From Aliiroseovarius lamellibrachiae (GTDB taxonomy: Bacteria; Pseudomonadota; Alphaproteobacteria; Rhodobacterales; Rhodobacteraceae): a stretch of 64,000 nucleotides of DNA. Shown in pieces: positions 55,132 through 57,069 of the stretch. Position 1 is the first letter of the stretch. Every line of letters starts with the position of its first letter. The stretch spans positions 62,001 to 126,000 of the forward strand of contig NZ_JAHEVJ010000008.1 in assembly GCF_018599245.1 (NCBI RefSeq), read 5' to 3'. The translations under genes and the position numbers were made by a program. Below the pieces are notes generated by a model. That model saw only the letters and a program-made list of their open reading frames with translations. It made no database searches and had not been told where the DNA came from.

Positions 55132-55410
55132 ATGGCTTTGCCCCTTGCCCCCATCGCCGCTGTTGCCCTGCGCTATGGCACTGTGGCTATGGCCACCTAT
55201 GCCCTTGCACGCACAGTCGAAAAAGGCCGTCGGGACCAACGGGTTGAGGATGCTTTGGACGATATTGACGAAGGTATCACCACCCGTCGTGACCCGGAAC
55301 AAGTCAACGCCACCGCGCGCATCATTCGCACCATCCGGTTGGGAAATACCGGCCCTGGCGTGGAAATTGACCTGACCAGCCTGACCCGAATTCGCTTTCG
55401 AAAACTGTAA
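55132..55410 (+). CDS. small hypothetical protein with hydrophobic N-terminus
   Basis: A 92-residue protein. The first 27 residues (MALPLAPIAAVALRYGTVAM and on) are hydrophobic, followed by a charged stretch with VEKGRRDQRVEDALDDIDEG and a C-terminal beta-like end. I know no function. A good ribosome binding site (AAGGAGGATCCC) supports it. Its last codons overlap the first unit of a palindromic repeat array. Confidence 0.7.
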   Translation: MALPLAPIAAVALRYGTVAMATYALARTVEKGRRDQRVEDALDDIDEGITTRRDPEQVNATARIIRTIRLGNTGPGVEIDLTSLTRIRFRKL

Positions 55411-55529
55411 ACACTTTACAGTTTCAAATCCGCAAACTTTAAACTGTTTAAAGGTCTGAATCCGGAAACTTTAAACTGTTTAAAGGCCCAAAACGCAAAA
55501 CTTTAAAGTTTTTACAGACCGGACATACC
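55402..55529. repeat. four-unit AT-rich palindromic array with exact 32-bp period
   Basis: Units begin at 55402, 55434, 55466 and 55498, each opening with AAACT. Unit 1 is AAACTGTAAA-CAC-TTTACAGTTT. Units 2 and 3 share CTTTAAACTGTTTAAAG. Unit 4 is AAAACTTTAAAGTTTT. Tails carry GC-rich variants such as AATCCGC/AATCCGG. The array runs from the end of the upstream gene to the base before the next ATG. The 32-bp spacing places all palindromes on one face of the helix, pointing to a DNA-binding array; an mRNA structure is the alternative. Confidence 0.8.
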
Positions 55530-56129
55530 ATGAAACTGATCTCTTCCCCCGCATCGCCTTTTGCGCGCAAAGTCAAAATCCAATTGCTGGAAACCGGCCA
55601 AGAGGATGTGGCGATCGACGAGGTGATGTCGACGCCAACCGCGCCCAATCCAGAGCTGACGGCGGCCAATCCGATGTCGAAAATTCCCGCCCTCATCCGG
55701 CCTGATGGTTGCACGCTTTATGACAGCCGGGTGATCACGCGGTTTCTGGACGCGCGCTCGGGTGCTGACATGTACCCGGACAGTCGCATTTGGGAAGTGC
55801 TGACGCTGGAGGCGACGGGCGATGCGATCATGGATGCGGGCGTGCTGATGGTTTATGAGAATCGCTGCCGACCTGAGGATATGCAATTTGGCGGCTGGAT
55901 GGACGCACAATGGGGCAAGATCGAAGGCGCGCTGGACGCGCTGAACACCCGTTGGATGAGCCACCTTGCCGGGCCTTTGGATATGGGGCAGATCGCCGTG
56001 GGCTGCGCGCTTGGATACCTCGATTTCCGCCATGACGACCGCGGCTGGCGCGTGGGGCGCGATGCGCTGGACGATTGGTTCGCGGTGTTTTCACAGCGTG
56101 AGAGTTTTGTGGCGACGAAGCCGGGGTGA
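55530..56129 (+). CDS. glutathione S-transferase family protein
   Basis: A 199-residue GST-fold protein. The thioredoxin domain has LISSPASPFARKVKIQLLET with a serine in the usual activating position, NPMSKIPALIRPDG and LYDSRVITRFLDA. The C-terminal domain is helical, with MGQIAVGCALGYLDFR. Class and substrate are unclear. The 32-bp palindromic array ends exactly at its start codon, so its expression may depend on that array; no conventional Shine-Dalgarno is obvious. Confidence 0.85.
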   Translation: MKLISSPASPFARKVKIQLLETGQEDVAIDEVMSTPTAPNPELTAANPMSKIPALIRPDGCTLYDSRVITRFLDARSGADMYPDSRIWEVLTLEATGDAIMDAGVLMVYENRCRPEDMQFGGWMDAQWGKIEGALDALNTRWMSHLAGPLDMGQIAVGCALGYLDFRHDDRGWRVGRDALDDWFAVFSQRESFVATKPG

Positions 56130-56185: not shown

Positions 56186-56214
56186 TTGACACGTACATTC
56201 ATTGTACGTACATT
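56186..56214 (+). promoter_or_regulatory. promoter and operator of the TacAT-type module
   Basis: TTGACA at 56186 and TACATT at 56209 are separated by 17 bp. The spacer is filled by the palindrome ACGTACA-TTCAT-TGTACGT (56191-56209). Binding there would block RNA polymerase, the standard way antitoxins autoregulate. Confidence 0.7.
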
Positions 56215-56237
56215 TATCCATGGAGTGGAGAGAGAAG

Positions 56238-56546
56238 ATGATACAAATCGCAGATTATACTGCGTCTTTGCGCGAGAGTAAGAGTGTGCGCAAAGACCTA
56301 AGAATGAAGCCTTCCGTAGTCGCAGCCATTGAACGCGCTTCAACCTGTGTCGGAATGGATACAAGCACCTTTATTGCATCCGCAGCTTATGATGCGGCTC
56401 AAAAAGTTGAGAAGGCACAATTTCGAACCTCTTTGAGCGACGAAGACTTCGATACATTTGCGAGTGCCGTCGATCGGCCTGGTCGCCGAAATGAGGCATT
56501 AGGGCATTTACTTAAGTTACGGAGCGAGCTCCTTACAGATGACTGA
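56238..56546 (+). CDS. TacA-like (DUF1778) antitoxin
   Basis: A 102-residue antitoxin. The ribbon-helix-helix part includes RKDLRMKPSVVAAIERASTC and GMDTSTFIASAAYDAA. The C-terminal region (FDTFASAVDRPG) is the usual toxin-neutralising segment. The ATG giving MIQIADYT follows GGAGAGAGAAG; upstream ATGs at 56202 and 56220 fall close to or inside the promoter. It overlaps the toxin gene by eight bases. Its DNA is visibly more AT-rich than its neighbours. Confidence 0.85.
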   Translation: MIQIADYTASLRESKSVRKDLRMKPSVVAAIERASTCVGMDTSTFIASAAYDAAQKVEKAQFRTSLSDEDFDTFASAVDRPGRRNEALGHLLKLRSELLTDD

Positions 56547-57069
56547 GACAAAGTATGTAGTGCAAAAATTTGAAAAAGCCCTGCATGATCGCGGGGCTTT
56601 TTCTTGTGGCATCCCAGAAATGGACAAATGGTTTAAGACCTCGATCTCCCAACAAATAAAGGACTATAGGGTTCGAGTATGGTGCGCAGTCGACACGGAA
56701 AAAAAAGTCGTGGGCTTCTATGCTTTGAATGCACACGCCATTGAACCTAGCGAAGCTACCGCACTAGCCAAAAAAAGTGACCGAAACCCAATACCAGTTA
56801 TTTACCTAGTAGCAATTGCAACCGACGTAACCGCTCGGGGTGCAAATCTTGGGAGTGCTCTTATGGGACATGCTCTCGAAAAGGCGCTGAGTATATCGAA
56901 AGAGCTGGGAACTGCAGCAGTAGTTCTTGATGTTTTGGAAGATGAAAACTTTCAAAGGCGCAAAGATTTTTACGAGAGGTTGGGCTTTGCAAAAATCGAC
57001 CCAGAGAACGAAAAACGCTTCTTCTTATCAATGAAAGACATTGCAGCAGAGTTTGTGGCCACCGCGTGA
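56539..57069 (+). CDS. GNAT-family acetyltransferase toxin (TacT-like)
   Basis: A 176-residue GNAT protein. The acetyl-CoA-binding motif is ATDVTARGANLGSALMGHAL. RKDFYERLGFAKID includes the catalytic tyrosine region. Known TacT/AtaT toxins acetylate the amino acid on charged tRNAs and stop translation. GAFSCGIPEMDKWF near the N-terminus is a common start of this toxin group. Overlap with a DUF1778 antitoxin makes the pair diagnostic for a type II module. Confidence 0.87.
   Translation: MTETKYVVQKFEKALHDRGAFSCGIPEMDKWFKTSISQQIKDYRVRVWCAVDTEKKVVGFYALNAHAIEPSEATALAKKSDRNPIPVIYLVAIATDVTARGANLGSALMGHALEKALSISKELGTAAVVLDVLEDENFQRRKDFYERLGFAKIDPENEKRFFLSMKDIAAEFVATA

Follow-up and report, generated by a model that had tools for sequence, protein, structure and literature searches.

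Few proteins are known to read sites distributed over a whole chromosome for the organization of the nucleoid or the placement of the septum. The closest described cases are Noc of Bacillus and SlmA of E. coli, each of which is one dedicated DNA-binding protein for many chromosomal sites (NBS and SBS, respectively), with the sites missing near the terminus. The sites of RacA in B. subtilis reportedly occupy many chromosomal regions, with several inverted repeats in each, and are said to be origin-proximal and GC-rich. Noc binds the membrane by a short weak helix, which becomes effective once the protein is gathered on DNA (PMC4331003, PMC6657595). The RBM sites of RefZ in Bacillus are five single, oriC-proximal motifs; PMC6657595 describes them as near-palindromic and conserved in position across the genus, which was taken as evidence of function. 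RefZ sets a precedent for reading a spatial role into sites whose positions are conserved. In Caulobacter, the terminus-linking protein ZapT could not be assigned a consensus site (PMC7188993).

Palindromes are also bound by antitoxins. The YefM antitoxin dimer binds palindromes before its own gene with TGTACA as the core hexamer (PMC4803016), and the title of a reference in the same paper speaks of paired palindromes. Such systems have one operator per locus and a toxin partner. Extragenic palindromes of the REP/BIME type often form composite arrays (PMC3733652, PMC2817692). Such elements usually exceed 100 copies and go together with RAYT transposases.

The arrays described here resemble NBS and SBS in being many chromosomal sites, putatively for one protein, and differ from them in that each consists of 2–4 units in a 32-bp step and that the candidate binder is of the Phd/YefM type, not of the ParB or TetR type. 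Unlike the RacA sites, they are AT-rich and chromosome-wide, and in contrast to the five RBM motifs there are about 20 arrays all round the chromosome. As at YefM/Phd operators, an antitoxin-fold dimer would bind palindromes before its own gene, but the core is TTTAAA, no conserved toxin was found, and there are about 20 arrays. Like REP/BIME elements they are extragenic palindromes, but at about 20 loci. Among the best matches listed from the open-access literature, we recognized no published account of such arrays.

The palindromic array in the window

The window, a stretch of 64,000 nucleotides, comes from the 3.34-Mb genome of an Aliiroseovarius species (G000). The original prediction of four palindromic units in an exact 32-bp step, each starting with AAACT and each with its own dyad, proved correct, as did the overlap of the first unit with the 3' end of the upstream gene, including its stop codon (Table 1). 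Tandem Repeats Finder called a single array at this place (period 32, score 105), while the best of its 11 other rows in the window scored 48. Each unit comprises AAACTTTAAACTnTTTAAAG and about 12 variable bases, and contains two half-sites in inverted order with the consensus CTTTAAA.

Table 1. Coordinates of the array, its neighbours and related features (window positions, or positions within fetched loci where an L number is given)
Feature	Position	Strand	Details
Unit 1	55402..55433	+	AAACTGTAAACACTTTACAGTTT + linker CAAATCCGC; covers last codons and stop of upstream gene
Unit 2	55434..55465	+	AAACTTTAAACTGTTTAAAG + linker GTCTGAATCCGG
Unit 3	55466..55497	+	AAACTTTAAACTGTTTAAAG + linker GCCCAAAACGCA
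Unit 4	55498..55517	+	AAACTTTAAAGTTTTTACAG
Dyad of unit 1	55402-55424		AAACTGTAAA/TTTACAGTTT
Dyads of units 2 and 3	55437-55453, 55469-55485		CTTTAAACTGTTTAAAG twice
Dyad of unit 4	55497-55512		AAAACTTTAAAGTTTT
Tandem Repeats Finder array	55402-55507		Period 32
Upstream 92-aa gene	55132..55410	+	No Pfam match; stop codon inside unit 1
GST-family gene	55530..56129	+	Downstream neighbour of array; mere adjacency, no regulation implied
TGTAC-rich inverted repeat	about 56190-56215		Short; just 5' of TacA1-type gene
TacA1-type antitoxin gene, then GNAT acetyltransferase gene	56202-57069		Likely TacAT toxin-antitoxin pair
Arrays reaching a second GST-like gene	L059:4978-5071, L109:5002-5086		Last unit inside first codons, kept as MLQDFKV/MLQKFKI
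Phosphotransferase/NAPRT arrays	L122:4997-5082, L124:4940-5026, L126:4897-4981, L123:5039-5095, L259 near 4965, L260 near 92		Six species of the other two clades
Closely placed arrays, G334	L264:967-1029, L264:5011-5065		4 kb apart
Fic-family genes near Phd-like gene	L115:5635-6801, L067:6002-6697		Perhaps traces of a Phd-Doc-like module
Array before Phd-like gene, G000			4 units; protein of 183 aa
Array before Phd-like gene, G008			4 units; protein of 186 aa
Array before Phd-like gene, G001			3 units; protein of 159 aa
Array before Phd-like gene, G019			3 units; protein of 146 aa
Array before Phd-like gene, G049			2 units; protein of 95 aa
Array before Phd-like gene, G334			2 units; protein of 103 aa
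Array before Phd-like gene, G679			2 units; protein of 104 aa

The array ends 12 nt before the ATG of the GST gene, which indeed lies one period beyond the start of the last unit, but the significance attached to this register did not stand. It is a coincidence, because the last units of the orthologous arrays sit at other distances from the GST start and the distances to genes vary for the other arrays too.

The window array folds far better than shuffled sequences (z −5.5 on the + strand, −3.0 on the − strand), as if such arrays were RNA elements, namely 3' UTR hairpins acting as terminators or mRNA stabilizers. However, tandem palindromes fold by construction, and changes in one half-site are not compensated in the other. 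The variants CTTTAAA, CTGTAAA, CATTAAA and GTTTAAA are common to both halves, and a CTGTAAA half is not preferentially paired with a second one (112 units, Fisher p 0.78), although its use is uneven (44 left, 14 right). This is the pattern of protein half-sites, unlike RNA pairing. Furthermore, array orientation does not track gene direction (5 with and 6 against among 11 codirectional sites, by hand tally), and an Rfam search gave nothing near threshold. The half-site test and the Rfam result disfavour an RNA element, which we regard as very improbable.

Arrays in the genome and in related species

Three TTTAAA motifs spaced 28–36 bp apart matched 12 times in the 3.34-Mb genome (overlaps counted) and the reversed control not at all, so the arrays are beyond chance. 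A sequence model, R1, was built from 15 four-unit arrays of this genome, which match it by construction, with the arrays of relatives left unused. It was applied to at most 150 candidates per genome, and loci were counted by hand among the matches listed, with both strands joined. In this way 19 array loci were found in G000, spread over 10 contigs, and 20, 18 and 17 in its relatives G001, G019 and G008, the last with an assembly 87% complete. Local tandem duplication alone was rejected on account of the 19 loci. Also disfavoured is a phage or plasmid origin: distant blastn of the window array matched neither phages nor plasmids, and a strict two-unit pattern had no match in viral contigs.

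The positions of the arrays are conserved, as would be expected of a Noc-, SlmA- or RefZ-type system. Among 22 positions compared in fetched loci of about 5–10 kb, 14 carried an array in all four species, 3 in G001 and G019 only, 2 in G000 and G008 only, and 3 showed other patterns (G008 being incomplete). The positions have been kept despite GST protein identities as low as 85% among these species. In a tree of three adjacent proteins of the GST locus, the four array-rich species formed one clade (support 100), sister to a second clade (100), with a third clade outside.

The number of units is a species-wide trait, mostly 4 in two species and 3 in two. Four units were present in 15/19 arrays of G000 and 12/17 of G008, the others having 3, whereas all 20 arrays of G001 and 17/18 of G019 had 3, with one two-unit array in G019. 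Selection on spacing and dyads, suggested in the original prediction, gained support. A step of 31–33 bp was retained in G000 (19 arrays), G008 (17), G001 (20) and G019 (18): 45 of 53 intervals in G000 were 32 bp, 5 were 33 and 3 were 31, and those in G019 were 31 (17), 32 (17) or 33 bp (one). In the comparison of G000 with G008, which used all 17 shared pairs, identity is 91% for cores and 79% for linkers (0.911 vs 0.792; p 6e-12), and 0.772 for the 60-nt flanks, which contain coding sequence. Between G001 and G019 (17/18 shared pairs, the two-unit one left out), the values are 0.805 for cores and 0.467 for the rest, against a baseline of 0.725 and 0.338 between non-orthologous arrays. The spacing is compatible with dimers at several sites three helical turns apart.

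Arrays of one species also change together. The CTGTAAA half-site occurs in 16/19 arrays of G000, in 0/20 of G001 and 0/18 of G019. Linkers common to different arrays were found for 14 pairs in G000 (mean of 300 shuffles 4.23, maximum 11), and this excess indicates that units were copied between arrays or changed together in the G000 line; shared linkers were not clearly above shuffles in G001 (2; mean 0.59, maximum 3) and G019 (1; mean 0.41, maximum 3). Taken together, these comparisons establish, at the level of sequence, the set and its step, the conserved positions, the conserved cores with freer linkers, and the concerted change between species.

The prediction had asked for conservation in relatives, and this was found in part: the array is kept in the three close species, but at the GST locus the other members of the genus do not have it. 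In the 15 further Aliiroseovarius orthologs found, it is absent and the GST start lies 2–3 nt behind the upstream gene (2/17 other species gave no ortholog match); outgroups G023 and G021 lack it as well. In G012, an array-poor member of the genus, both flanking genes were found for 10/17 loci; 9 gaps, of 7–171 nt, contained no array, and at the tenth locus the flanking genes are 2.3 kb apart. The best R1 matches in the other 17 members of the genus had E 8e-4 (G015) or weaker. A second model, R2, found one diverged array in 7/17 of them (E below 0.01) and none in the rest; five of the seven were used to build R2, and G004 and G010 are independent. Six of these arrays lie at the phosphotransferase-NAPRT locus and one at tatC/DUF815, a position common to G001 and G019. 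The diverged phosphotransferase/NAPRT arrays are probably relics, judging by their sequence, because in the three species compared their cores are no better kept than their linkers (0.81–0.88 vs 0.80–0.94, about 52 and 35 columns).

The arrays are not confined to four species, as mostly two-unit arrays were found in G334 and G049. These genomes had scored 0 in a scan of 394 genomes, because the three-unit pattern missed mostly two-unit arrays. Among 390 genomes of the order, the strict two-unit pattern matched only G000 and G334. When R1 was run on 61 genomes around G334, it gave 19 matches in G334 (16 distinct loci), 13 in its congener G679 (12 loci), 4 in G049, none in G678 of the same genus as G334, and one or two weak matches in five other genomes; the weak match inspected in G053 was not an array. 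Parsing, in which some third units are weak, gave 16 arrays in G334 (12 two-unit, 4 three-unit), 9/12 in G679 (six two-unit, three three-unit) and 3 in G049, all two-unit; the fourth G049 match resembles a coding-sequence start. In these two genera the parser, which allowed 31–33 and favoured 32, called 35 intervals (20 in G334, 12 in G679 and 3 in G049), all of 32 bp. Two of the three G049 arrays occupy junctions where Aliiroseovarius has them too, namely serA-serC (L061) and yjdM/Phd-like gene near lepA (L054), so the system is older than the genus Aliiroseovarius, or sites recur. Among the matches listed for the bare TTTAAA pattern in the genome collection, the 21 inspected from other bacteria resembled simple repeats or singletons. 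One Muribaculaceae genome carries short-period TTTAAA tandems on seven listed contigs (L153, L156, L161, L180, L186, L213, L224), which look unrelated to the 32-bp arrays.

Extragenic palindromic arrays at gene 3' ends could also be selfish REP/BIME-type elements that became fixed in their positions after a single episode of spreading. The units with linkers common to several G000 arrays fit such a history, and the short array-free gaps at 9 orthologous positions of G012 make a gain in the array-rich clade possible. However, the Y1 (RAYT) transposase was not found in G000, G001 or G008, that is, in three of the four array-rich Aliiroseovarius, although there are 8 in G019 and 1 in G006, and the 17–20 loci listed per genome are far from the more than 100 copies typical of such elements. 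The regular unit number and step, the kept positions with cores better conserved than linkers, and the sharing of 2/3 positions with another genus (G049) also speak against this origin, which is disfavoured and, in our judgement, improbable.

Chromosomal spacing and gene context

The smallest within-contig gaps between arrays were 47 kb in G000, 45 kb in G001 and 48 kb in G019, and these minima were wider than expected by chance (P 0.0057, 0.0059 and 0.015, respectively; positions are shared, so the genomes are not independent). Two arrays of G334 lying 4 kb apart run counter to this rule. Seventeen of the 18 loci queried could be placed on the chromosome of G012 (its contig begins with a dnaA-like gene). 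They are distributed all around it, with none between 953 and 1652 kb. The switch in GC skew (between stretches at 1642 and 1782 kb) has orthologous positions on either side, at 1652 and 1792 kb, in the order of G012, which may differ from that of G000; by this order, orthologous positions come close to the presumed G012 terminus, a region without SBS or NBS in their hosts. Strand polarity relative to the replication fork was not significant among the 17 mapped arrays (11 opposite, 6 same; hand tally, with one near the terminus uncertain).

With gene orientations from our own simple gene caller, the genes on either side of the G000 arrays are convergent in 7 cases, codirectional in 11 and divergent in 1, so that 18/19 arrays are sited away from divergent promoter regions. 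The remaining gaps of 60 nt or more in these loci numbered 11, 50 and 30, respectively (P 0.005 in either direction); when all adjacent gene pairs were taken as the reference, the convergent excess had P 0.02 and the divergent deficit was weak (P 0.06). The neighbours have no common pathway, and include panC, NAD kinase, transketolase, phosphoglycerate dehydrogenase, fatty acid desaturase and others. The names dnaA, lepA, serC, NAPRT, tatC/DUF815 and nadD used for such genes are presumptive, recognized by eye from the sequences.

Regulation of the GST gene, as originally proposed, is not supported: its array is one of 19, mostly at gene 3' ends and beside functionally unrelated genes. An operator of the GST promoter is therefore rejected as the main account, also in view of the GST orthologs without an array. 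A broader alternative is an ordinary regulon, in which a dimeric transcription factor represses or blocks about 20 operons and the arrays are operators or gene-end roadblocks. It is favoured by the 11/19 arrays between codirectional genes and the one in a divergent promoter region, by the 12 nt that separate the window array from an ATG, and by the last unit at L059 lying within the first codons of a second GST-like gene. Seven convergent sites with only one divergent, the unrelated neighbours, and the lack of an array in 9/9 readable orthologous gaps of G012 argue against it, and we consider a regulon rather unlikely. As far as sequence can tell, the arrays are probably places where one DNA-binding protein lands in the service of the chromosome as a whole, not switches of neighbouring genes.

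An orphan Phd/YefM-type protein as candidate binder

The only divergent site of G000 (L054) faces the gene for a Phd/YefM-type protein, and in 7/7 array-rich genomes an array ends, by eye, 6–10 bases before the start codon of this gene. The number of units there is the number usual for the species. Moreover, protein length and unit number change together (95–104, 146–159 and 183–186 aa with 2, 3 and 4 units, respectively), and the arrays of the genome follow. The serA-serC position shared with G049 extends the sharing of arrays beyond the Phd-like gene. The protein has a DNA-binding domain (PF02604/TIGR01552; PF02604 above the curated cut-off in 5/7, below in 2), and the closest chains of known structure are RelB, Phd, Rv2865 and prevent host death protein by name. 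A GPVNPETGxR-like stretch is common to the seven proteins. A ParB paralog was considered as binder as well, but by reading the match list we found no consistent extra copy following the arrays (ParB_N matches: 4 in G000 and G019, 2 in G001, 3 in G008, 1–6 elsewhere).

Phd-type proteins usually pair with a toxin. In six genomes read, no conserved toxin gene was found beside the Phd-like gene; different Fic-family genes lie near it in 2/6, G019 and G008. The Phd-like gene had no match in one 20-kb stretch with yjdM and lepA of G012, the sole array-poor species looked at. In 6/7 proteins the C-terminal tail is rich in Trp and Arg (e.g., KRWWRWW, RARNWGWHWD), the G049 protein having no such tail. 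As a membrane feature this tail is suggestive only, because 6/162 proteins of the G000 loci, the Phd-like one included, have at least 2 Trp in the last 16 residues.

From these observations, we infer that the orphan Phd/YefM-type protein is the best candidate binder of the arrays. The protein would use the array before its gene as an operator and the remaining arrays as chromosomal sites. Each unit would accommodate one dimer, so that 2, 3 or 4 dimers would line up along the same helix face at three-turn intervals. Filled arrays repeated over the chromosome could become anchored clusters, and the Trp/Arg tail could act like the N-terminal helix of Noc in tethering the bound DNA to the membrane. 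A chromosome-scale role, be it organization, segregation or the coupling of division to the nucleoid, is suggested less firmly, in view of the wide spacing of the sites in Aliiroseovarius, their avoidance of promoters and the lack of a pathway common to them; a role in division, as for Noc and SlmA, is a candidate. To the whole reading, that is, chromosome-wide platforms for a homodimer, a binder of the Phd/YefM type and a chromosome-scale role, we would assign a probability of roughly one half. That an antitoxin-fold protein freed from its toxin has become a chromosome organizer, which gathers about 20 phased arrays by its dimers and hooks them to the membrane by the Trp/Arg tail, is a speculative extension that we hold to be unlikely.

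Direct tests would be simple, because the sites are plain, countable, conserved in position and concerted, with a candidate binder behind one of them. The arrays may be regarded as a natural experiment on how one protein and about twenty sites shift jointly in specificity and in the number of sites. If true, a membrane-hooked organizer of this type would be a new kind of nucleoid–membrane system in alphaproteobacteria.
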